From positions 1 to 35,761 of the forward strand of contig JAJZFA010000062.1 of NCBI GenBank assembly GCA_021805565.1: 35,761 nt of DNA, in the 5' to 3' direction. Position numbers and translations under genes: made by a program. Numbering within the stretch: position 1 is the first letter of the stretch; each line of letters opens with the position of its first letter. Below are positions 3,900 through 32,523 of this stretch, piece after piece. The notes under the pieces were generated by a model that saw only the letters and a program-made list of their open reading frames with translations, searched no databases and was not told the origin of the DNA. The stretch is from Pseudomonadota bacterium (GTDB lineage Bacteria > Pseudomonadota > Alphaproteobacteria > Acetobacterales > Acetobacteraceae).

Positions 3900-4222
3900 G
3901 ATATGGACGCCGCGGTCGCCCGACCGAATGCCTATGCGGGCTGGCTGCATCGCCAATCAACCCCGGTCGTGCGCGAGCAGGTGCAGATGCCCTTTCACAT
4001 CCGGCCCTGTCCATTGAACTCGGTCGGGGTGGGGCCATTTGTGCGTTAAGCTTACATCGACGGCCATAAAGCACGACCGTCGATATCGTTCCGCGCCCCC
4101 CGCTTGACCGCGTATGCGCGGATTGACAAAACTGCCCGCGAGGGGACCGTCGCGGGTTTAATTCGACCTAAGACTGCTCAAATCCGGTGTGTCGAAACAC
4201 CAACATGATGAAAGGGAGTGCG
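3900..4222. promoter_or_regulatory. Leader region of the molybdenum hydroxylase operon with inverted repeat
   Basis: A non-coding stretch upstream of the small-subunit gene. ATCGACGG (4056-4063) and CCGTCGAT (4077-4084) form a perfect 8-bp inverted repeat with a 13-base spacer, a possible operator for the hydroxylase operon. A TTGACA hexamer (4123-4128) is present but has no good -10 at normal distance. No regulator gene lies next to the operon. The protein binding the repeat, if any, is unknown. Confidence 0.3.
4135..4163. terminator. Candidate intrinsic terminator or leader hairpin before the hydroxylase operon
   Basis: CCCGCGA (4135-4141) and TCGCGGG (4150-4156) form a perfect 7-bp GC-rich stem with an 8-base loop, followed by TTTAATT on the plus strand. 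On the minus strand the same stem is followed by CAGTTTTG. It could terminate in either direction. Because it lies only 60-70 bases before the start codon and after a TTGACA, it could also be part of the operon leader. Confidence 0.4.
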
Positions 4223-4708
<486 letters not shown>

Positions 4709-4737
4709 AGCGCCGCGATCGTTTGGGAGGACATATC

Positions 4738-7119
4738 ATGGGCTTCGAGGGCATCGGCGCATCCGTTCGCCGGAAAGAGGACGTCCGCTTCCTGAGCGGT
4801 AAGGGCAATTACACCGACGATATCGACCGTCCCGGCCAGCTTTACGCCTATATCAAACGAGCCGACCGGCCGCACGCCAAAATCGGCGGCATCGATACGG
4901 CGGCGGCGTCCGCCGCGCCGGGCGTTGTGCGCGTATTCACCGGCGCGGACATGGCGGCGGAGAATATCGGCGGCATCCCATGCGGCTGGCAACTGCATAA
5001 CCAGGACGGCTCGCCCATGGCCGAACCGCCCCATCCGGCGCTCGCGGTAGGCAAGGTCCGTCACGTCGGCGATCCGGTCGCGGTGGTGATCGCGGCGACA
5101 AAGCAACAGGCCAAGGACGCGGCCGAACTGCTCGCGATCGATTACACCGACCTGCCAGCCGTCGCGAACCTGAAGGATGCCGTGGCCGCCGGCGCGGCGG
5201 AAGTGCATGACGGGGTTGCCGGCAATATTTGCTACGATTGGGCAATCGGCGACAAAGCGGTGGTCGATGGTGTGTTCGCCGGCGCCAAACACGTCGTCAA
5301 ACTCGATCTGGTGAACAACCGGTTGATCCCGAACGCGATGGAACCACGCGTGGCCATCGGCGACTACGATACGTCGTCGGGCGATTTCACGCTTTATACC
5401 ACCAGTCAGAACCCGCATGTGATCCGGCTGCTGATGGGCGCGTTCGTGCTGCACATCCCGGAAAACAAGCTGCGTGTGGTTGCCCCCGACGTGGGCGGCG
5501 GCTTCGGCTCGAAAATCTATCACTACGCGGAAGAGGCGATCGTCACCTGGGCCGCCGGCAAGGTGCGCCGTCCGGTGAAATGGACCGCCGAACGCAGCGA
5601 AAGCTTCATGTCCGACGCGCATGGCCGCGATCATGTCAGCACCGCCGAGATGGCACTGGACGCGGAAGGGCATTTCCTCGGCCTTCGCATCGTCACCCTG
5701 GCAAACATGGGCGCTTATCTGTCCACCTTCGCGCCCGCTGTGCCAACTTATCTGTATGCCACGCTGCTGGCGGGCGTTTACAAAACACCTGTTATCTACT
5801 GCAACGTGAAAGCGGTTTTCACCAACACCGTGCCGGTGGACGCCTATCGCGGCGCCGGCCGGCCGGAAGCCACCTATCTGCTGGAACGGCTGATCGACGT
5901 GATCGCGCACGACACCGGCTTGGACAAAATCGAACTGCGCCGGAAAAACTTCATTCCCGCTGATGCGTTTCCCTACCAAACCCCGGTCGCGTTGGAATAC
6001 GACAGCGGCGACTACCAAACCACGCTGAAGGTCGGCCTGAAAAACGCCGGCTGGGACGGTTTCGAGGCGCGCAGGACCGAGGCGCGATCGCGCGGAAAGC
6101 TACGCGGCATCGGGATTTCCACCTATGTGGAAGCGTGCGGAATCGCTCCGTCGGCGGTCGTGGGGTCTCTGGGCGCTCGTGCCGGCCTGTATGAGGTTGC
6201 CGAGATCCGCGTTCACCCAACCGGCAGCGTAACCGTTTTCACCGGCACTCATAGCCACGGACAGGGCCACGAAACCACCCTGGCACAGCTTGTTGTCAGC
6301 CAGCTTGGCGTGCCCTTCGATCAGGTGGAAGTGGTGCATGGCGACACGGCGAAGATTCCGTTCGGCATGGGCACCTACGGCAGCCGCAGCCTCGCCGTCG
6401 GCGGTTCGGCCATGGTGAAGGCGATGGACAAGGTCATCGCCAAGGGCAAGAAGATCGCCGCCCACCTGATGGAGGCCGCGGTCGAGGACATCGAGTTCAA
6501 GGACAACGTGTTTACCGTTGCCGGCACCGACAAATCCAAGACGCTGACCGACATCTCCCTGGCCGCCTATGTTCCGCACAACTATCCAATCGAGGAACTG
6601 GAACCCGGCCTGGACGAGACCGCGTTCTACGATCCCAAGAACTTCACGTTCCCCGGCGGGTGCCACATCGCCGAGGTGGAAATCGATCCGGAAACCGGGG
6701 TCGTGGAAATGGTGAATTTCACCGCCGTTGACGACGTGGGCCGGGTCATCAATCCGATGATCGTCGAGGGCCAGGTGCAGGGCGGCGTCGCCCAAGGCAT
6801 CGGACAGGCGCTGATGGAAAATTGCAACTACGACCAAAGCGGCCAACTTCTGTCCGGATCGTTCATGGACTACACGATGCCGCGGGCAAACGACATTCCG
6901 AATATGTCTGTCGCCACCGAAAACACCATGTGTACCCACAATCCGCTCGGTTCCAAGGGTTGTGGCGAAGTCGGAGCGATCGGATCGCCCCCCGCCGTGA
7001 TCAACGCGGTGGTCGATGCATTGAAGGATTACGGCGTGCGGCATCTGGATATGCCGGCGACCGGGGCCAAACTCTGGTCCATCATCCAGGCGGCAACACC
7101 CCGGATGGCGGCGGAATAA
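4738..7119 (+). CDS. Molybdenum hydroxylase large (catalytic) subunit, form II CoxL-like
   Basis: A 793-residue Mo-pterin subunit. It begins [21 protein letters not shown], the standard family N-terminus. It has the cofactor-binding loop VGGGFGSK, the active-site loop AYRGAGR (residues 369-375) and the base-catalyst region GCGEVGAIG, with the conserved Glu near residue 744. True (form I) CO dehydrogenase carries AYxCSFR with the Cu-binding cysteine. AYRGAGR marks the form II/aldehyde-oxidase-like group, whose substrates are mostly unknown (aromatic or N-heterocyclic compounds, aldehydes). GGGAGG lies 7 bases before the ATG at 4738, which fixes the start over an in-frame TTG at 4723. It sits in a three-gene S-L-M operon; no CoxD/F/G maturation genes lie beside it. 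Confidence 0.93.
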
Positions 7120-7143
7120 GTTAAGGCGAAGGGAAAAAGCACG

Positions 7144-7938
7144 ATGTACGATTTCGCATATCAGAAACCCGGCAGCCTCGCGGACGCGGTCAAGGTTCTG
7201 TCCGGCGACCCGGACGCCAAGGCGCTCGCGGGCGGCCAGACGTTCATTCCGGTGTTGAAGCAGCGCCTGAACAAGCCATCGACGGTCGTGGACCTGTCGA
7301 AGCTGGGGCTGTCCGGCATTACCGTTTCCGGCGACAAAATCGTCATCGGAGCGATGACCCGGCACGCCGAAATTGCCTCCAACGCCGACATCAAGGCGAA
7401 AATCCCCGGACTAGCCCATCAGGCGTCCCTGATCGGGGATGAGGCGGTGCGCCATCGTGGTACCATGGGCGGATCGCTCGCGAACAACGACCCGGCGGCG
7501 TGCTACCCGTCGGCGTTGCTGGCACTGGGCGGCACCGTCAAAACTGACCGCCGGACGATTGCCGCCGACGATTTCTTCCAGGGCATGTTCACCACGGCGC
7601 TGGAGCAAGGGGAGATTATTACCTCGGTCGAACTGCCGGTCCCGCAGAAATCGGCCTATGAGAAATTCCGCAATCCAGCCTCGCGTTATGCGATTGTCGG
7701 CGTGTTCGTGGCGAAGTTCGCGTCCGGCGTGCGCCTGGCGATCACCGGCGCGGGCCAGGGCGGCGTGTTTCGCCACACCGCGATGGAAAAAGCGCTGTCG
7801 GCCAATTTCTCCCCCGATGCGATCGGCGGAATTGTTACGTCGTCGGACGATTTGAACAGCGATATCCACGCCAGTTCCGAATACCGGGCGCATCTTATCG
7901 GTGTGATTTCAAAAAGGGCCGTGGCGAAGGCAGCTTAA
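7144..7938 (+). CDS. Molybdenum hydroxylase medium subunit, FAD-binding (CoxM type)
   Basis: A 264-residue flavoprotein subunit that takes electrons from the [2Fe-2S] clusters and delivers them to the acceptor. Two FAD signatures are clear: AGGQTFIPVLKQRL (about residues 28-41) and the TIGG-type loop TMGGSLANNDPAA (about 108-120). C-terminal homology to CO dehydrogenase flavoprotein continues to the end, though the protein is a little shorter than the usual 280-290 residues. AAGGGA precedes the ATG. It lies 24 bases after the large-subunit stop and closes the operon; a perfect stem-loop follows. Confidence 0.92.
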   Translation: MYDFAYQKPGSLADAVKVLSGDPDAKALAGGQTFIPVLKQRLNKPSTVVDLSKLGLSGITVSGDKIVIGAMTRHAEIASNADIKAKIPGLAHQASLIGDEAVRHRGTMGGSLANNDPAACYPSALLALGGTVKTDRRTIAADDFFQGMFTTALEQGEIITSVELPVPQKSAYEKFRNPASRYAIVGVFVAKFASGVRLAITGAGQGGVFRHTAMEKALSANFSPDAIGGIVTSSDDLNSDIHASSEYRAHLIGVISKRAVAKAA

Positions 7939-20560: not shown

Positions 20561-21691
20561 TCAGTTTCGCGTATCGGTGCCGCCGTTCCGCAAAAACGCC
20601 AATAGCAACGCGATCACGCCGGCCGGATTTTCCTGCTGCACCCAGTGACCCGCGTTGTCTAACAAATGGCAACCCAGCATGTGCGTGCAGGCACTGGCTT
20701 GCATGCGCTCAATGGCGCCGAAGGTTTGATAGATACCCCAATCCCGCGCCCCGGCGATGAACATCGAGGGCACATCGATGGTGCGGCCGGCGAAGACCTG
20801 CAATTCCCGGTTGCCCACACCCTGCGTGCGGCAGCGATACCATTGAAGGCCGCCCTGGAAGCCGGTGCGTTCGTATTCGCCGCTGTAAACACGCAATTCG
20901 GCGTCGGGTAGCCATTCGCAGGCGGCGATCGCCTCGGGGGTTGGCATTTCGGCGGCGACGGTTTCCGCCATGCCGCGATCGCGGTCCATGATGTAATAGG
21001 TGGGCATCCGGGCCAGTTCCGGCGCGGTGGCCCCGGCCAGACGAAACGGCTGGTTACCGGGCCAATCGGCGCTTTTGTGGTGGTAGTAGGCGCGCAGGAA
21101 CGCATGCATGCCCTGGCGGCTTCGCGTCATGGCGGCGTTGGCTTCCCGCGTCGAGTAATACCACTGGTAATGCTTGCGGGGGCGGTCCAGCGCCGCCAGC
21201 GCCGCGTGAACGTCCGGTGCGGGCGGCGGTGTCAGGGCCGGCGGGCCGGCGAACGGCGCGCTCATGAGCGTGACGGAGCGGAAGATATCGGGTCGCAGCA
21301 CGGCGCACCACGCGGCGACCGAAGCGCCGAAATCGTGCCCAACCACCGCCTGCACATGCGTCTGGCCGAGTGCCGCCAAAACGCCGATGACGTCGCGGAC
21401 GAGGTTCAGCATCCCGAACGATGCCAGATCGCCATCGTAATCCGGATCCCAACCGGTGGTGCGGCCGTACCCGCGCTGATCGGGGGCGATGACGTAATAC
21501 CCAGCCCCGGCCAGGGCGGGTATGATTTTGCGCCAGGAATACGCCAGTTCGGGAAACCCGTGCAGCAGCAGCACGCAGGGCTGACCGGGTTGGCCCGCTT
21601 CCAGCACGTGGAGCCGCAAACCGTTCACGCCATCGACAAAGCGGGCGCGGATTCCCGCCGGCAGGATATCCGCGCCGAACGCCTCGATCAT
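20561..21691 (-). CDS. Epoxide hydrolase (alpha/beta-fold)
   Basis: A 376-residue alpha/beta hydrolase of the epoxide hydrolase class. It has the oxyanion motif LLLHGFPELAYSWR (HGFPE), DQRGYGRT, and a nucleophile elbow VVGHDFGA in which Asp120, not Ser, is the nucleophile. A tyrosine-rich cap (HYQWYYST, AYYHHK) could supply the epoxide-activating tyrosines, and the catalytic His is in DNAGHWVQQENP. The product is a vicinal diol. The start overlaps the CYP153 stop by 4 bases (ATGA), so expression is coupled. This ties it to P450 products: terminal alkenes would give epoxides. A fluoroacetate/haloacetate dehalogenase is the alternative, made less likely by the context. Confidence 0.88.
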   Translation of the reverse strand: MIEAFGADILPAGIRARFVDGVNGLRLHVLEAGQPGQPCVLLLHGFPELAYSWRKIIPALAGAGYYVIAPDQRGYGRTTGWDPDYDGDLASFGMLNLVRDVIGVLAALGQTHVQAVVGHDFGASVAAWCAVLRPDIFRSVTLMSAPFAGPPALTPPPAPDVHAALAALDRPRKHYQWYYSTREANAAMTRSRQGMHAFLRAYYHHKSADWPGNQPFRLAGATAPELARMPTYYIMDRDRGMAETVAAEMPTPEAIAACEWLPDAELRVYSGEYERTGFQGGLQWYRCRTQGVGNRELQVFAGRTIDVPSMFIAGARDWGIYQTFGAIERMQASACTHMLGCHLLDNAGHWVQQENPAGVIALLLAFLRNGGTDTRN

Positions 21692-22944
21692 GCCGGAATA
21701 CGCACTTTCATCTCAGAGATGCCGTGGATGAAGTTCGAGTAGATGCGCTTCGGTTCCTCGACCAGTTCGATGACGGGAAAGCGTTTCATGATCTCTTCCC
21801 ACAGAATGATCAGTTGCATTTCCGCGAGGCGATTGCCGACGCAGCGATGCACGCCGAAACCGAAAGATAGATGATGCCGGGGCCGGGTCCGGTCCACGAT
21901 GAACCGGTTGGGATTGTCGATCGCATCCTCATCGCGGTTGCCGGAAATATACCACATCACGACCTTGTCGCCGGCCTTGATCTGCTTGCCGCCGAGTTCG
22001 GTGTCGGCCAGCGCGGTGCGGCGCATATGCACGATGGGCGATTGCCAACGGATGATTTCCGGCACCATTGCGGGAATGACACCGGGGTTGTCGCGCAGCT
22101 TTTGGTATTCGGCGGGGTTTTTGCACAAAGCCCAAAGTCCGCCGCTCATGGAGTTGCGGGTGGTATCGTTGCCGCCGACGATCAGCAGCGTCAGGTTACC
22201 CAGGAATTCCGCCGGATCGTTGACCAGATTCTTGGTCGCCTCGCTGTGCGCCAGCATGGAGATCAGGTCGAATCCGGGCGGTTTCGCGGCGCGTTCATGC
22301 CACATGGCGGTGAAGGTGCGCAGCGCCTCGGTTAAGAATTCCAGCCGCTTTTCCTCGGAATCGACAACGCCGCCGGCATTTACGTCCGCGGTGGCGCAAT
22401 CGGACCAGAAGGTCAGTTTGCCGCGATCCTCAATGGGAAAATCGAACAGGGTCGTCAGCATCAGCGTGGTCAGTTCGATCGAGACATGCTCCACCCAGTC
22501 GAATGTTTCGCCACGCGGCAATCCGTCGAGCACCTTGCAGACACGTTCGCGGATGACCGGCGCCATGTTGTTGAGGTTGGCGGGGGCGACGATCGGGCTG
22601 ACCACCTTGCGCTGATCGTCATGGCGCGGCGGATCCATGGAGATAAAGCTGGACCGGCGAAACTCCATCGGCCGGTCGGTGATGCTGATCCCGCCGAGTT
22701 TCGCTTCCGAGGAATAAATCTCCGGATGCGTTTCGACCGTCATGATGTCCTTGAACTTGGTCACCGACCAGAACGACCCGTATTTGCCGTCCTTGCGGTA
22801 GTGCACCGGGTCCTCGCGGCGCAGACGCTCGAAATACGGATAGTAGGTATCGTCCTGGAATAGTTTGGGATCGCTGACATCGATCTGGCTGAGCGGTGTC
22901 GTATAGGCATCCGAAGCAGGATCGAAATGGACCGGTGCGTTCAT
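21688..22944 (-). CDS. Cytochrome P450, CYP153 family (alkane/terminal hydroxylase)
   Basis: A 418-residue soluble P450. The I-helix oxygen-binding motif is VGGNDTTRNSMSGG, the ExxR helix is PEIIRWQ, and the haem loop FGFGVHRCVGNRLAEMQ has Cys368 as axial ligand. The run MRRTALADTELGGKQIKAGD and the ending EEPKRIYSNFIHG are hallmarks of CYP153, known for terminal hydroxylation of medium-chain alkanes and fatty acids and for epoxidising terminal alkenes. AGGAGG precedes the ATG at 22944. It lies 28 bases after the ferredoxin gene and overlaps the epoxide hydrolase gene. Its electron-transfer partners are in the same operon, so the system is self-contained. Confidence 0.95.
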   Translation of the reverse strand: MNAPVHFDPASDAYTTPLSQIDVSDPKLFQDDTYYPYFERLRREDPVHYRKDGKYGSFWSVTKFKDIMTVETHPEIYSSEAKLGGISITDRPMEFRRSSFISMDPPRHDDQRKVVSPIVAPANLNNMAPVIRERVCKVLDGLPRGETFDWVEHVSIELTTLMLTTLFDFPIEDRGKLTFWSDCATADVNAGGVVDSEEKRLEFLTEALRTFTAMWHERAAKPPGFDLISMLAHSEATKNLVNDPAEFLGNLTLLIVGGNDTTRNSMSGGLWALCKNPAEYQKLRDNPGVIPAMVPEIIRWQSPIVHMRRTALADTELGGKQIKAGDKVVMWYISGNRDEDAIDNPNRFIVDRTRPRHHLSFGFGVHRCVGNRLAEMQLIILWEEIMKRFPVIELVEEPKRIYSNFIHGISEMKVRIPA

Positions 22945-22972
22945 AGGCGGAGCCTCCTGTTTTATTTGTTGT

Positions 22973-23299
22973 TCAGTGCTGTCCCTCGGGCATCCTGACG
23001 ATCAGGCCATCGTGCGCGTCCGTGACATGAATCTGGCAGGACAGGCGTGAATCCGGCTGGGTGACGGCGGCGAAGCTGAGCATGCTGGCTTCCTGCGATC
23101 CGGGAACCGGCAGGCCGATGCGGTCCAGCCATGCGGCGTCGATATAGACGTGGCAGGTGGCGCAGGCGCATTCGCCTCCGCAATCCGCGTCGATGCCTGG
23201 AACATTGTTATCGACCGCGCCTTGCATGACCGATTTGCCAATGGGCACCTCGATCGCATGCGCCGATCCGTTGTGTTCGATGTATGTTATTTTAGGCAT
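22973..23299 (-). CDS. [2Fe-2S] ferredoxin, adrenodoxin/putidaredoxin type
   Basis: A 108-residue electron carrier with the ligand pattern C40-x5-C46-x2-C49 ([16 protein letters not shown]) and the fourth ligand C88 (SRLSCQIH), the adrenodoxin-type arrangement that serves bacterial P450s. The ATG at 23299 follows AGGGAAC and gives the usual N-terminus [11 protein letters not shown]; codons further upstream overlap the reductase end and are not needed. It sits between the reductase (28-base gap) and the CYP153 gene. Confidence 0.94.
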
Positions 23300-23327
23300 T
23301 GAGCGTTCCCTGATTGCCGGCATTTGA

Positions 23328-24560
23328 TTAGGCCGCGAGTTCATGCATCGATATTGACACATCTTCTATTTGGACGCGAGTGAGCCGTTTGCGCCGCTGG
23401 ACGATCCGGCGTCCGCCCATGAATTCGGGCGCCGCGTTCACCGCTTCCACCGCCTGCACGGTGCCATCCGCCGTCAAATGGAACAGCGCGAATGTCCCCG
23501 TGCTTATGTCGCCACGCACCGCGATTTCCGTCGTATCGAACGGCATGCCGGCGATTTGCAGCCGCAGATCGTATTGGTCGGACCAGAACCACGGCACCTC
23601 CGGCGCGGGTGCGGGCTTACCGCAGATCGATGCCGCGGCTTGCTTGGCCTGTTCCAGCGCGTTCGGCACGCTTTCCAGCCGCCCGATCCGGCCGTACAGG
23701 GGCAGCGGCCGGCTGGTGCAGTCGCCGATCGCGAAGATCGCGGGGTCATCGGTGCGGGCCGACAGGTCCACGGCGATTCCGTTGGCACAGGTCAGGCCGG
23801 CGTCGCGGGCGAGTTCCTCGTTCGCCACCGCGCCGACGCCGATCAGGGCCGCGTCGCATGGAACCACCCGTCCGTCGCCCAGGCGCACCCCGGTTATCCG
23901 CCCGTCCAGACCTTCCAGCGCGGCGACCTGGGCAGCGACCTCGATCGTTACCCCCTGGCGGCGGTGAAACGCCTGGAAGAAATCCGACAGGATCGGACAG
24001 GCAACTCGCGCCAGAACCCGGCTTTCCCGTTCGATAATGACGACTTCGGCACCCAGTGCCCGAGCGGATGCGGCGGCTTCGAGGCCGATATAGCCGCCGC
24101 CGACGACGGCAAGACGGGCCCCTGGGCGCAGAACTGCCTTCAGCCGGTCGGCATCGACCGCCGTCCGCAATTCCAGCACGCCGCCCAGGTCCGCGCCGGG
24201 TAAGGACAGTCGCCTTGCCCGCGCACCCAGCGCCAGAATCAGGTAATCGTAGGATACAGCCTCGCCATTGGGCAGCAGGACCGCCTTGGCCGGCCGGTCG
24301 ATGCAGGTGACCCGCGTGTCAAGCCGCAGGCCGATCGCCGCATCCGAATAAAAAGCTGGTGGCCGCAGCGCCAGGCTTTCGGCCGTTGCCTCCCCCTTCA
24401 GCCATGCTTTCGACAACGGGGGGCGCTGATAGGGCAGGATTGGTTCCTCGCCGATCAGCACGATAGCACCCTGCCAGCCAAGTTGCCGCAGCATCGCGGC
24501 GGCGGACCCGCCGGCATGGCCCGCGCCGGCAATCACGATCTGTCGGCTGTCCTGAACCAC
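23328..24560 (-). CDS. NAD(P)H-dependent ferredoxin reductase (FAD), GTG start
   Basis: A 410-residue flavoprotein of the putidaredoxin-reductase/rhodocoxin-reductase family. Features in order: FAD-binding [10 protein letters not shown] near the N-terminus, [10 protein letters not shown], the NAD-binding [30 protein letters not shown] (second FAD contact) and the C-terminal [15 protein letters not shown]. No ATG exists near the right place. GTG at 24560, with GGGAG upstream, gives the family length; the longer in-frame opening toward 24812 would run through the SRP RNA gene. It reduces the ferredoxin encoded next and heads the four-gene CYP153 operon. The operon promoter must lie in the ~120 bases between this start and ffs. 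Confidence 0.92.
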
Positions 24561-24647
24561 CCCGTCCGCTCCCGCGCTTATTTGCCAGGATATCAGCAGC
24601 ACGCGACGGTCTCGGCAAGCGGGTCGAAGCAGTTTCGCCAAGCCGTC

Positions 24648-29046: not shown

Positions 29047-29094
29047 GGGCAGCTCTATCGGCATACTGACGCACCTATGGCCGATGCTGTCCCT
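29046..29094. terminator. Candidate bidirectional terminator between the GNAT gene and modC
   Basis: AGGGCAGC (29046-29053) can pair with GCTGTCCCT (29086-29094), and inside it ATCGGCAT (29057-29064) pairs with ATGGCCGAT (29077-29085), with small bulges. The structure spans the gap between the two convergent stop codons. No T-run is present on either side. Confidence 0.45.
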
Positions 29095-30172
29095 ACGTCC
29101 CGATCGCCTCGATCGAAGTCGATTTGATCAGCGCCAGCACCGGGGCACCCAGCGACAGGTTCAGGCGAACGACGGCATCCGGTGTCACCCTGGACAGCAG
29201 CGCGCCATCCGGTAAGGCGATCTCGACCATCGCGGATCGACTGTCGGGGTCGCCGGCGATGCGCCGGACTGTTCCGGGAACGACATTGTGAAGGCTGATC
29301 CCCTCCGGCGTCCGGCTTGCCAGGATGACCTCGCGCGCTGGGATACGCACGCGGCACTGCGCGCCGGGCGGAAGGTTCAGCAACGGCACCCACAGGGCCG
29401 TGCCGCCGCCCATCAGGCGGGTCAAGGCCCGGGGATGGTCATGTTCCGCCACTTCGCACAGCAGCAGCGCGGCGGCATCGTCGCGCCGTGCCAGCGGCAA
29501 ATCGGCACGTCCGGCGATGTCCTGCACCGAACCAAACGCCGTAACACGCCCCTCGTCGATCAGCACCAGGGAATCGGCCAGTCTGGCCGCCTCATCCAGG
29601 GCATGCGTGACATAGAGCACCGGCAGGCGCAGGGCCGTCTTCAAGCCGGTCAGATACGGCAGGATTTCCGCTTTCCGCGCCGAATCCAGGGCGGCCAGCG
29701 GTTCGTCCATCAACAGCAGGCGTGGCTGCGCCAGCAAGGCCCGGCCGATCGCCACGCGCTGCCGTTCGCCTCCGGACAAGGTGTACGGACGCCGGTCCAG
29801 CAGGCCGGATAGGCCCAGCAGGTCCACGACATCGCCGAAGCCGATCGCGCCGGGGGGCACACGCCGCATGCCATAACGCAGGTTGGCGGCCACCCGCATA
29901 TGCGGAAACAACCGCGAATCCTGAAACACCACCCCTGCCCGCCGGCGCTCCGGCGGTAACCAGATGCCGGCGCCGATGTCGGCCAGCACCGCATTATCGA
30001 CCGCGATACGACAGCTATCGGGCCGCAACAGGCCCGAGGCGACGCTGACGATGGTGGATTTTCCAGACCCGGACGGGCCGAACAGAACGGTGACGCCGGG
30101 CGACGGAACATCGAACGCGATATCCAACTGGAACGATGGAAAGCGATGGCGTATCGCGACGGAGACACTCAT
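29093..30172 (-). CDS. modC: Molybdate ABC transporter ATP-binding protein ModC
   Basis: A 359-residue ABC ATPase. Walker A is GPSGSGKST (32-40), Q-loop VVFQDSRLFPHM, signature LSGGERQRVA (132 on), Walker B LLLMDEPLAALD and switch H190 (YVTHALDEA). The C-terminal ~90 residues form a TOBE/Mop domain (IPAREVILASRTPEGISLHN, then LGAPVLALIKSTSIEAIG), which in ModC binds molybdate or tungstate and gates transport. The Mop segment and 'SLHNVVPG' separate it from sulfate and iron importers. The ATG at 30172 overlaps the modB stop (ATGA). Last gene of the DUF2325-modB-modC operon. Confidence 0.94.
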   Translation of the reverse strand: MSVSVAIRHRFPSFQLDIAFDVPSPGVTVLFGPSGSGKSTIVSVASGLLRPDSCRIAVDNAVLADIGAGIWLPPERRRAGVVFQDSRLFPHMRVAANLRYGMRRVPPGAIGFGDVVDLLGLSGLLDRRPYTLSGGERQRVAIGRALLAQPRLLLMDEPLAALDSARKAEILPYLTGLKTALRLPVLYVTHALDEAARLADSLVLIDEGRVTAFGSVQDIAGRADLPLARRDDAAALLLCEVAEHDHPRALTRLMGGGTALWVPLLNLPPGAQCRVRIPAREVILASRTPEGISLHNVVPGTVRRIAGDPDSRSAMVEIALPDGALLSRVTPDAVVRLNLSLGAPVLALIKSTSIEAIGT

Positions 30173-30861
30173 CGCCCGAGCGCTGTGTTCAGTCGCTTGC
30201 CGAACCATTCCGATAGCAGCAGTCCGGTCAGTGCCAGGGTCAGCGAAATCATCGACAGTCCGGCGGCCTTGGCCTCGCCGCCGGGGACCTGCAATGCGCT
30301 GTAAATTGCCAGCGGCAGGGTTTGCGTCTGCCCGGGGATGTTGGCAGCGAAGGTGATGACGGCGCCGAATTCGCCCAGGCAGGTCGCATAGCCGACAATG
30401 GCGGCCGCCAGAATACCGGGCGATGCGAGCGGCAAGGTGACGGTGAACAGGCGGTCCAGCCAGCCCGCGCCCAGGGTTCGCGCCGCCTGTTCCAGGCCGC
30501 CGTCGATTGCATCCAGCGACAGCCGGACGGCACGCACCATGATCGGGAATGTCATGACCGCGCAGGCGAGACTGGCGCCAGCGGTGGTGAACACCAGGCG
30601 GATGCCGAACCAATCGTGAAGCAGCACGCCGATCGGTCCGCGGATACCGAAAACGATCAGCAGCAGCCAGCCGGTGACAACCGGGGGCAGCACCATCGGC
30701 AGATGGACCACCGCATTCAGCAGCCCCCGACCCGGAAAGCGGCAGCGCGCGAGGATCCACGCGGTCAGGATAGCGACAGGCAGCCCGAAGCCGATCGCGC
30801 GCGCGGCGACTGCCAGGGTCAGCCAGACGGTTTCCCATTCTTCCGGCGTTAATGTCGTCAT
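30169..30861 (-). CDS. modB: Molybdate ABC transporter permease ModB
   Basis: A 230-residue inner-membrane permease with five to six helices. Typical ModB sequence includes TVWLTLAVAARAIGFGLPVA, HLPMVLPPVVTGWLLL, and the EAA loop EQAARTLGAGWLDRLFTVTL that docks ModC. GEFGAVITFAANIPGQTQTL is diagnostic for molybdate permeases. The ATG at 30861 is chosen; an in-frame TTG at 30894 is the alternative and would leave only a 3-base gap after the DUF2325 stop. No modA (periplasmic binding protein) is in the operon, which is unusual and means ModA must come from elsewhere or another binding protein serves. Confidence 0.94.
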   Translation of the reverse strand: MTTLTPEEWETVWLTLAVAARAIGFGLPVAILTAWILARCRFPGRGLLNAVVHLPMVLPPVVTGWLLLIVFGIRGPIGVLLHDWFGIRLVFTTAGASLACAVMTFPIMVRAVRLSLDAIDGGLEQAARTLGAGWLDRLFTVTLPLASPGILAAAIVGYATCLGEFGAVITFAANIPGQTQTLPLAIYSALQVPGGEAKAAGLSMISLTLALTGLLLSEWFGKRLNTALGR

Positions 30862-30897
30862 GAGATCGCTATAGCCGTGAACAGGCAGCGGCAACAG

Positions 30898-32127
30898 TCA
30901 GGCGGCGACAGTCAGCGATCGGAGGGCGGCTAGCAGCGCGGTGACGCTGGCAGAGCGCAACGGAATGAACCGCTTGCCGGCCTGGCGGGACAACGATTTG
31001 ACCGCGTTCGCGGCTTCGTGGCTGATGCAATCGACTGGAAACAAGGCGATATCGGATTGGCTCATCAGCCCTGCCAGCAGGCTGGGCCGATGCTCCATGC
31101 CGCCGTCGTGATGCAGGAATGCCGCGCCCAGACCTTGTGTCGCCGCACGCATCGGGGCGACCTGATTGGGGCGGCCACCGACATACAGTAACGTTAGGCC
31201 GTCCAAACGCATCGGCGGCGTGTCGGACGGTGCCACACCCAGCGCCTCTTCGGCCGCGCGCAGTTCGTGGCGCATGGCATCGCAGGCCGCTTCGGCCGCG
31301 ATGCGTGCCGCCCGTTCGGCATCGCGATCCGCCTGCATCGCTTTCAGCCGGCTGTCCAGCGTGGTTCGGGGCCTGGATTCGGCGGCGAGGCGCTTTTCCC
31401 GGTCGGCGACAAGACCGAACAGAGGGGTGTTGTCAGTGGGAAGGACGGCGGAGGCATCGGAGACAATCTTGTCGGCCAGCGTCTGCCGCAACGCCTGGAT
31501 CTGGGTATCGCGATCGGCAACCGCCCGGTGCAAGGCGTGTTGCTGGCGCTCGAGCCTGGATTCCAGGTCCGCTTTGTCAGTTTCAAGTTGACAGAGACGC
31601 CTTATGTCCGCCCGGTTGGCCGATCCGATAAGGTGGGACAACATATGCACGTCCCCGAACGCATCCCGGACGATCGTCTGGTTGGTGTGCGGATGGGTCA
31701 GCGTCGCCCAATAGGCGCCGGGAATGTCGCCGCGGCGCGCGGACTCCTGCCATAGCACCTGAACGCCGGCCGCGTCGGCGGCCCGGGCGAACCGGTTGAC
31801 CGCCAGCTTATGGCGATGATCGAGCGCCTTGTTGAGTTGCCTGGCGGTATCGTCGTGCCGCCCCGCCACGGTGACGGCCATGCCATGCAATTCGTGATCG
31901 GTACGGCCGTGGACCGGCAGGCCGGCCTTTTTCAGTATTTGCCTCAGGTCCGGTGCCGACAGGCAGGTGCCGATGATCGAGCAGTGCAGGTTGGTGTTGA
32001 ATTCCCATATCTTAGTGCGGCGTGGCGCGGCGGGGCGCTGGACCAGCGCGGGCGGAATCGTGCGGAGATCGAAAGGCCGCGCCAGCAGCGGGGTTTTGAT
32101 CGCGATCGAGTGTCCTGCTCCGCTCAT
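30898..32127 (-). CDS. DUF2325 domain protein heading the modBC operon
   Basis: A 409-residue cytoplasmic protein of unknown function. The C-terminal ~90 residues are the DUF2325 domain: LLYVGGRPNQVAPMRAAT, HHDGGMEHRP, FPVDCISHEAANAVK and FIPLRSASVTALL. The middle (about 185-310) is charged and likely coiled coil (RLERQQHALHRAVADRDTQI). The N-terminal part has potential metal ligands: LHCSIIGTC, DHELHG and DVHMLSH. It begins the operon with modB and modC and lies directly under two Mo-box-like palindromes. That suggests a role in molybdenum uptake, sensing or use; this is inference. AGGG (complement of 32135-32138) lies 7 bases before the ATG. Confidence 0.88.
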   Translation of the reverse strand: MSGAGHSIAIKTPLLARPFDLRTIPPALVQRPAAPRRTKIWEFNTNLHCSIIGTCLSAPDLRQILKKAGLPVHGRTDHELHGMAVTVAGRHDDTARQLNKALDHRHKLAVNRFARAADAAGVQVLWQESARRGDIPGAYWATLTHPHTNQTIVRDAFGDVHMLSHLIGSANRADIRRLCQLETDKADLESRLERQQHALHRAVADRDTQIQALRQTLADKIVSDASAVLPTDNTPLFGLVADREKRLAAESRPRTTLDSRLKAMQADRDAERAARIAAEAACDAMRHELRAAEEALGVAPSDTPPMRLDGLTLLYVGGRPNQVAPMRAATQGLGAAFLHHDGGMEHRPSLLAGLMSQSDIALFPVDCISHEAANAVKSLSRQAGKRFIPLRSASVTALLAALRSLTVAA

Positions 32128-32144: not shown

Positions 32145-32172
32145 TTCGTTAGTTCAAATTGGATATAACGAC
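32145..32172 (-). promoter_or_regulatory. Candidate ModE operator (Mo-box 1)
   Basis: Half-sites TTCGTTAGTTC (32145-32155) and GATATAACGAC (32162-32172) flank exactly 6 bases. They match each other as an inverted repeat at 8 of 11 positions. Against the known ModE half-sites ATCGCTATATA / TATATAACGAT they match 6 and 9 of 11. The site overlaps the likely -10 and start region of the DUF2325-modB-modC operon, where molybdate-bound ModE would repress. No modE gene is in the window. Confidence 0.55.
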
Positions 32173-32191
32173 TCGCGCCGGCCCTGGTCCA
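32162..32191 (-). promoter_or_regulatory. Candidate promoter of the DUF2325-modBC operon
   Basis: Read leftward: -35 TGGACC (complement of 32186-32191), 18-base spacer, -10 TATATC (complement of 32162-32167). Each hexamer matches the sigma-70 consensus at 4 of 6 positions. The predicted start is about 28 bases before the ATG at 32127. Both Mo-box-like palindromes touch it. Confidence 0.4.
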
Positions 32192-32218
32192 TCGTAATAT
32201 TCCACAGGGTATAGCGAC
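32191..32218 (-). promoter_or_regulatory. Candidate ModE operator (Mo-box 2)
   Basis: Half-sites ATCGTAATATT (32191-32201) and GGTATAGCGAC (32208-32218), again with a 6-base spacer, match the ModE half-sites at 8 and 7 of 11 positions. Its centre is 46 bases from that of Mo-box 1. The same spacer length and motif in two neighbouring sites is unlikely by chance. It reaches the upstream edge of the candidate -35. Confidence 0.5.
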
Positions 32219-32523
32219 CATGCCCCAAGGGGCTAGATCCGCCAAGCGGAAAGCAAACAACCCGTGCGTGCTCGGTGGACGCTGGAGGACAACGGAGTGG
32301 AACAGAGCATCGCCGAGCGCGCCGGCGGCACCAGGATCTGGCTGTATAGCGAACAAGCAAACGCTCATCGCCGAGGACAGAGCGTGGGAAAAATAATGAA
32401 ATCGCAATGAAACCAGGACGGACTGGCACTTCGCAACGGCCGATGCCCGGATCGCGCTTATATGGGCCGATCCGGCGCTATGAGCGACTCAGTGCCCTAA
32501 AGTCTAGATTTGTCCGACGGGTT
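32219..32523. other. Gap between the Mo-box region and the acyl-CoA dehydrogenase genes
   Basis: About 300 bases with no convincing gene. A short CCCCAAGGGG palindrome occurs near 32223-32232 and a lone TATAGCGA half-site-like sequence near 32345; neither is interpretable alone. This is the 3' side of the leftward acyl-CoA dehydrogenase operon; no clear terminator was seen. Confidence 0.4.

Follow-up and report, generated by a model that had tools for sequence, protein, structure and literature searches.

The window, i.e., the whole stretch of 35,761 nucleotides analyzed here, carries on its minus strand an operon composed of a DUF2325 gene, modB, and modC, which is preceded by two palindromes resembling the Mo-box. 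The individual features are as follows.

29093..30172, minus strand: modC, molybdate ABC transporter ATPase (TIGR02142, 391 bits; cut-off, 285)
30169..30861, minus strand: modB, molybdate ABC transporter permease (TIGR02141, 205 bits; cut-off, 182.6)
30898..32127, minus strand: DUF2325 gene, 409 amino acids, ATG at 32127 (PF10087, 49 bits, E = 7.2e-13)
32145..32172, no strand: proximal Mo-box, candidate ModE operator, -18 to -45 from the DUF2325 start (21.4 bits)
32191..32218, no strand: distal Mo-box, candidate ModE operator, -64 to -91 from the DUF2325 start (21.7 bits)
32217..32222: weak candidate -10 element CATGGT, 17 bp downstream of the -35 candidate and touching the distal Mo-box
32240..32245, minus strand: candidate -35 element TTGGCG, suggested by similar hexamers in relatives

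The gene identities assigned in a preliminary description of the window were borne out by these profile matches, the permease and the ATPase of the molybdate transporter both scoring above their cut-offs. The listed modB open reading frame has a possible start at 30894, and modC overlaps modB by 4 bases and possesses a C-terminal TOBE domain (PF03459). The operon contains no modA; the single modA match in the genome (G000:C24:95713) stands behind a gene for a binding protein (SBP) that has its own Mo-box. Two other gene groups were observed in the window. (i) A three-gene cluster on the plus strand (4205 to 7938) encodes the 2Fe-2S, molybdopterin-binding, and FAD subunits of a molybdenum hydroxylase (Fer2_2, MoCoBD_1/2, and FAD_binding_5); it is a possible consumer of the imported molybdate, and no Mo-box above threshold was found at this cluster. 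(ii) On the minus strand (20561 to 24602), there are a cytochrome P450 gene, an adjoining 2Fe-2S ferredoxin gene, and an apparent reductase gene, the latter judged from its start only.

A scan with the sigma-70 consensus upstream of the DUF2325 gene found no promoter pair. By eye, ten relatives (all those with a DUF2325 match except G023, G004, and G009) share TTGGC(A/G) or TTGCCG followed, after 16 to 17 bases, by a CANTAT-like hexamer extending into the distal site; judging from these sequences, this footprint is likely the promoter. The plausible promoter proposed earlier is thus upheld insofar as relatives show a -35/-10-like footprint adjacent to the distal site, and falls short in that there is no consensus pair and the -10 element is weak here.

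Each palindrome consists of two 11-base half-sites separated by 6 bases, and both the starts and the centers of the pair are 46 bp apart; the coordinates, the 11-6-11 layout, and the distance in the preliminary description were all correct. The consensus of Escherichia coli ModE, as excerpted from PMC545781, is ATCGNTATATA-N6-TATATANCGAT, and the window sites show these inverted half-sites with the exact 6-bp gap. The proximal site, in which the higher-coordinate half-site is good and the other degenerate, matches the E. coli half-sites at 15 of 22 positions in either orientation. The same figure had been given for the distal site; it holds on the plus strand, and 17 of 22 positions match on the gene's own (minus) strand. 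Since a single match of 15/22 is expected 0.24 times per window and was present in 20.75% of 400 simulated windows, a lone match is unremarkable. Two such matches within 28 to 100 bp occurred in 0 of the 400 simulated windows.

As the E. coli consensus alone proved too weak a yardstick, a motif was learned from the genus itself. A palindromic search without any Mo-box input, covering the 500 bases upstream of modA in 30 genus genomes, returned GtCGCTATATCcgat.GGaTATATCGTC; 14 of the 30 regions contained a clear site (score of at least 18, in natural-log units). The modA site of G000 was missed in these regions because it sits 1.1 kb upstream of modA, before the SBP gene. The resulting matrix ranked the distal site first (21.7 bits) and the proximal site second (21.4 bits) in the window, about 12 bits above the third place (9.1 bits); simulated first-order Markov sequence gave no such score at any of 2,144,040 positions (maximum, 16.5). 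The matrix scan that had been suggested as a check and the view that chance matches are unlikely thus came out in agreement. A half-site-like copy (GTATAGCGA) was also noticed at 32338 to 32365, with 14/22 matches to the E. coli consensus; the stretch that resembles the distal site is 135 bases away from its counterpart there, and the copy is absent from the 12 best places of the window by the genus motif.

A DUF2325 match was found in 14 of 33 genus genomes (those in G009 and G017 are fragments) and in 0 of 26 others searched alongside. The relatives that bear names are Rhodopila, Acidisphaera, and an unplaced Acetobacteraceae bacterium, which suggests a Rhodopila-like acetobacterium for G000. 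The palindromes are conserved upstream of these orthologous genes, a point on which the preliminary description had made its reading depend: scored with a matrix containing no DUF2325 sites, 12 of the 14 upstream regions (G000 included) reach at least 13 bits, and permuted decoy motifs gave a mean of 0.03 and a maximum of 2 at this threshold. The regions below it belong to G004 (11.0 bits) and to the fragment in G009. In seven relatives (G025, G022, G014, G020, G002, G029, and G017), a second site lies exactly 47 bp from the first, and the spacer between the paired sites differs among them although the spacing is fixed. The two sites are 46 bases apart in G000 and 69 in G023, and the distal site alone is kept in G008, G006, and G024. 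These data bear on the possibility that the palindromes are AT-rich chance occurrences without function. The base rate speaks for chance in the case of a single site only, but the pair was never met in simulation and is conserved in relatives with fixed spacing; a chance origin of the pair was ruled out by conservation, matrix statistics, and simulation together, and we consider this explanation hardly credible.

In G006, the genes form one cluster that reads aldehyde dehydrogenase (ALDH), box, DUF2325, mop, modE, box, SBP, modA, modB, modC; that of G008 is similar, except that the box separating modE from the SBP gene is weak (10.4 bits). DUF2325, mop, modE, a box, the SBP gene, and modABC stand together in G004, and parts of the cluster are found in G023 and G009. 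In G000, the genes are spread over three places, with boxes at both pieces of the transporter, as would be expected if selection had kept ModE control.

For the genome-wide search, an asymmetric model (R1, 14 modA sites) missed the window sites, and a symmetric model was therefore used instead (R2, 31 rows comprising sites and their reverse complements, none from G000). An earlier pass had given 105 matches, both strands together, of which 40 places were rescored; the R2 result is the one relied on. Over the 4.49-Mb genome, R2 retrieved only five sites in four loci at an E value of ≤10, a list that is possibly incomplete since 150 of 642 first-look candidates were scored. The distal Mo-box was matched with an E value of 0.198 and the proximal one partially (E = 7.1). 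The other three sites are the following.

L170:5595-5622: 12 bases before the SBP gene, with modA next
L043:4749-4776: 85 bases before an ALDH gene
L042:4717-4744: between a BBP2 porin gene and an SDR gene

Two further places were taken as chance, namely, C45:82846 (16 to 17 bits), inside an open frame reading like a response regulator, and C9:64492 (6.9 bits), which falls within a predicted gene.

The preliminary description noted that no ModE gene is in the window, and the single ModE match of the genome indeed sits on another contig (C8:40133; TIGR00637, E = 1.3e-24, 88 bits, which is below the curated cut-off of 98.5); the ModE-type regulator that this reading needs is thus present in the genome. 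It comprises 135 amino acids and matches only HTH_1 in Pfam and only the DNA-binding model ModE_repress in NCBIfam; neither database gave a C-terminal TOBE/Mop molybdate-binding domain. Its closest solved relative is 2IJL (E = 1.9e-22), a "molybdenum-binding transcriptional repressor" with a 135-residue chain, which we take to be from Agrobacterium tumefaciens, followed by the ModE structures 1O7L/1B9M (E = 3.9e-12), presumably those of E. coli. In total, 34 ModE-like matches were detected in 23 of the 33 genus genomes. Twenty-nine were read, and the 28 usable frames extend at most 169 residues from the match start, which is too short for an HTH domain plus two TOBE repeats; length, rather than a TOBE scan of each frame, is the basis of this statement, and one match (L074) aligned badly. 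Several larger genomes encode second, divergent ModE-like proteins (L069 in G025, L070 in G024, L071 in G008, L072 in G006, and L073 in G022) that are 36 to 49% identical to G000 ModE. A stand-alone Mop was not found in G000, where the TOBE model matched modC and open frames of 567 and 372 amino acids; the same model gives a Mop of the genus 61.9 bits, so that a Mop in G000 should have shown up.

The presence of ModE goes along with that of the motif. A Mo-box within 1.5 kb upstream of modA was found in 20 of 22 genomes with ModE and in 2 of 8 without it (leave-one-out scoring; Fisher P = 0.0011, a value that is too optimistic because it is uncorrected for kinship, the genomes of one genus not being independent, and because the 12-bit threshold was set by us). 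The table covers 30 of the 33 genomes and no modA locus of G014, G021, or G027. The exceptions with ModE are G013, with no site within 1.5 kb of modA, and G008, with 10.4 bits only; a Mo-box without a detected ModE occurs in G012 (100% complete), G002 (80%), and G014 (91%; outside the Fisher table). The palindromes could in principle be sites of another regulator, of the LysR or TetR type, that merely look like Mo-boxes, given that about one simulated window in five contains a single 15/22 match by chance. However, the same 28-bp motif emerged de novo at modA genes, goes with ModE, and precedes DUF2325, modE, and mod genes in other families, which makes a different regulator very improbable. 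Very probably, the palindromes are docking sites of the small ModE-type regulator.

Regarding the mode of action, we consider it highly likely that a ModE operator pair controls DUF2325-modB-modC as part of a small regulon that the one-domain ModE represses when molybdenum is sufficient. Each 28-bp palindrome would bind one dimer of this protein, in the region of the promoter and the gene start. With sufficient molybdenum, dimers on both boxes would block the promoter and repress the operon; as molybdenum falls, DUF2325-modBC and SBP-modA would be expressed together. The regulon would comprise the two sites in the window and one each at SBP-modA, ALDH, and the porin/SDR pair. Repression is proposed by analogy with MopA/MopB of Rhodobacter capsulatus, and repression when molybdate is plentiful, as suggested previously, would need a sensor, since G000 ModE has no TOBE domain. 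The same feature, together with the 28 genus frames too short for a two-TOBE half, is consistent with an alternative in which ModE binds, but the one-domain form is an activator or a dual regulator and itself not molybdate responsive, for example with activation from the distal site and repression from the proximal one. Paired sites at a fixed 47-bp spacing are also more elaborate than a simple block requires, and in G025 a 30-bit Mo-box precedes a molybdenum hydroxylase gene, where induction by molybdenum would make sense. Against this, the distal site coincides with or immediately follows the likely -10 element of the putative promoter, which is a repressor position. Genes for molybdate uptake stand out among the targets, and MopA/MopB repress modABC-type operons in R. 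capsulatus (excerpt of PMC6925177). Activation or dual control is hence an unlikely alternative to repression.

The proposal that ModE operators stand at molybdate uptake genes was supported, and it requires extension, since the predicted regulon also covers ALDH, porin/SDR, and DUF2325 genes. (i) The ALDH group of G000 (E ≤ 1e-200) is present in 18 of 33 genus genomes, 16 of which have enough upstream sequence; 6 of these 16 possess a site of at least 13 bits (decoys, at most 1), located at -113 in G000, G017, G019, G005, and G020 and at -107 in G013. Weak or decayed sites lie near the same place in G014 (7.9 bits, -111) and G025 (3.1 bits, -113), a 12.0-bit site lies at -129 in G010, and the remaining seven of the 16 upstream regions show no convincing site. 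In relatives, different ALDH genes are divergent to DUF2325 across the same boxes. Control of ALDH by a Mo-box hints at Mo-sparing, a term for which the literature searched gave no match in connection with molybdenum. (ii) The BBP2 porin has matches in 3 of 33 genus genomes, with three further copies in two genomes, and a Mo-box is found about 101 bases upstream in all four copies; it is a candidate outer-membrane route for molybdate or a molybdenum complex. (iii) The SBP encoded before modA, behind a Mo-box, is of the Peripla_BP_2 type (L170:5635-6618; family tested in G000 only), and its ligand may be a molybdenum complex. Its orthologues at L029, L033, L034, L036, L037, and L039 likewise stand behind a Mo-box (weak in L033) and before modA or modB, with an SDR gene instead of a mod gene after the SBP gene in L037.

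The DUF2325 protein consists of an N-terminal helical domain with invariant His and Cys residues, a long coiled coil, and the C-terminal DUF2325 domain. Sixty-six of the listed homologues, with identities as low as 33%, were selected and aligned; across all of these, H48, C49, C55, H81, H145, H161, H165, H340, D341, C367, and H370 are invariant, and a metal or oxyanion site is plausible. The structure model (pLDDT, 84.6; pTM, 0.46) is helical in the N-domain, continues as a coiled coil, and ends in an alpha/beta domain; a fold comparison gave no solved match at an E value of ≤0.001 (best, 0.022, with low TM-scores).

Outside the genus, tblastn placed the protein in 38 plasmid records, of which 16 were read, and a class-wide search gave matches in 5 of 385 genomes (including G000), from which five matches in the four other genomes were read. 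When 450 bases upstream were considered (550 at the five nonplasmid loci), 14 of these 21 loci showed a site of at least 11.9 bits; background predicts 0.034 sites per region, and equal-rate decoys average 1.19 in the 21 loci (maximum, 10). A fifteenth is the Shinella locus L174, with a perfect palindrome before a NUDIX gene preceding DUF2325. Counting L174, boxes were found at the plasmid loci of Rhizobium (2/2), Methylorubrum (1/1), Shinella (3/3), Aureimonas (1/1), Ensifer (2/2), Caballeronia (4/4), and Burkholderia (1/1) and at none of the two Azospirillum loci; among the nonplasmid matches, one (48% identical) has a site and four (34 to 41%) have none.

Molybdenum genes were detected near DUF2325 at 5 of 10 annotated plasmid loci: a TOBE protein gene, modCBA, glp, and, as the immediate upstream neighbor of DUF2325, a winged-HTH gene in Methylorubrum extorquens CM4; modA, ALDH, and winged-HTH genes in Aureimonas; a 135-amino-acid LysR-type gene (ModE-like by position), nifQ, and a molybdopterin oxidoreductase gene in Caballeronia Lep1P3; XdhC and molybdenum hydroxylase genes in Shinella HZN7; and glp in Rhizobium B21/90. 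On the Shinella sp. HZN7 plasmid (L174, 2719 to 10976), an annotated NAD-dependent formate dehydrogenase was also noticed near DUF2325 and the molybdenum hydroxylase genes; it may be a molybdenum-free enzyme that serves as a partner in Mo-sparing. The other five annotated loci (Ensifer PDNC004, two Shinella zoogloeoides, and two Azospirillum) have no molybdenum genes. At four of six unannotated loci (three Caballeronia and one Burkholderia), a ModE match stands beside DUF2325 (tblastn, 38 to 45% identical), and at the other two there is none.

DUF2325 was rejected as an obligate partner of ModE: 11 genus genomes have a ModE match and no DUF2325 match, so that DUF2325 is not needed in general, and 9 of 10 such genomes examined have a Mo-box upstream of modA. 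Because boxes and molybdenum-gene neighbors recur in several genera, the long-form DUF2325 protein looks, on sequence grounds, like a ModE-regulon protein of molybdenum homeostasis; the literature searched, as far as the excerpts extend, holds no link between DUF2325 and molybdenum. A more far-reaching joint reading is tentative, and we rate it as possible rather than probable: long-form DUF2325 would be a molybdenum-scarcity protein of alpha- and betaproteobacteria, conserved in the ModE regulon, that binds a metal or oxyanion via its invariant His and Cys residues and handles molybdenum in the cell or relays molybdenum status to the one-domain ModE, and an NAD(P)-type ALDH would be swapped in when molybdenum-dependent aldehyde oxidoreductases cannot be made, i.e., Mo-sparing outside nitrogenase.

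These data place DUF2325, a family whose function is unknown, in a context, in that the long form is preceded by a Mo-type site not only in this genus but also in seven named genera from two classes of proteobacteria, and about half of the plasmid loci read lie near modE, modABC, mop, glp, nifQ, or molybdenum hydroxylase genes. They also make it testable how a ModE without a molybdate-binding domain senses molybdenum, the species of the window offering a test case with a one-domain ModE, four regulon loci found so far, and no Mop detected.

Several comparisons can be made with known systems. (i) As in the ModE/Mo-box control of E. coli, an 11-6-11 palindrome has molybdate transporter genes behind it and a ModE-type HTH protein in the genome. 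In contrast to E. coli, ModE has no molybdate-binding domains here, the sites are paired 46 to 47 bp apart, modA is elsewhere, and DUF2325 heads the operon. (ii) According to the excerpt of PMC6925177, MopA/MopB of R. capsulatus repress via Mo-boxes at mopA, anfA, and morA when molybdate is present, the targets being mopA-modABC, anfA (the regulator of the molybdenum-free Fe-nitrogenase), and morAB. The Mo-boxes are alphaproteobacterial in both cases, whereas the molybdenum-free alternative is the Fe-nitrogenase there and, as a candidate, an ALDH here. (iii) Campylobacter Cj1384, strongly induced under violet-blue light (excerpt of PMC9426514), is a short protein of 104 amino acids that shares the DUF2325 domain; the form described here is long, with an extra N-terminal His/Cys domain, a coiled coil, and Mo-boxes upstream. 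(iv) One-domain ModE proteins, for which molybdenum sensing is "not clear," were described in two Desulfovibrio species and D. psychrophila, and the Desulfovibrio proteins were assigned another motif, CGGTCACG-N14-CGTGACCG (excerpts of PMC545781). Like these proteins and 2IJL, G000 ModE is a DNA-binding domain only, but unlike in Desulfovibrio, it goes with an E. coli-type Mo-box. None of the excerpts of the literature searched showed E. coli-type boxes combined with a one-domain ModE, in a genome where no Mop was found and with DUF2325 as a recurring target. Taken together, the operator pair is a further case of the known ModE/Mo-box operators, in a one-domain ModE setting with DUF2325 as a recurring target.
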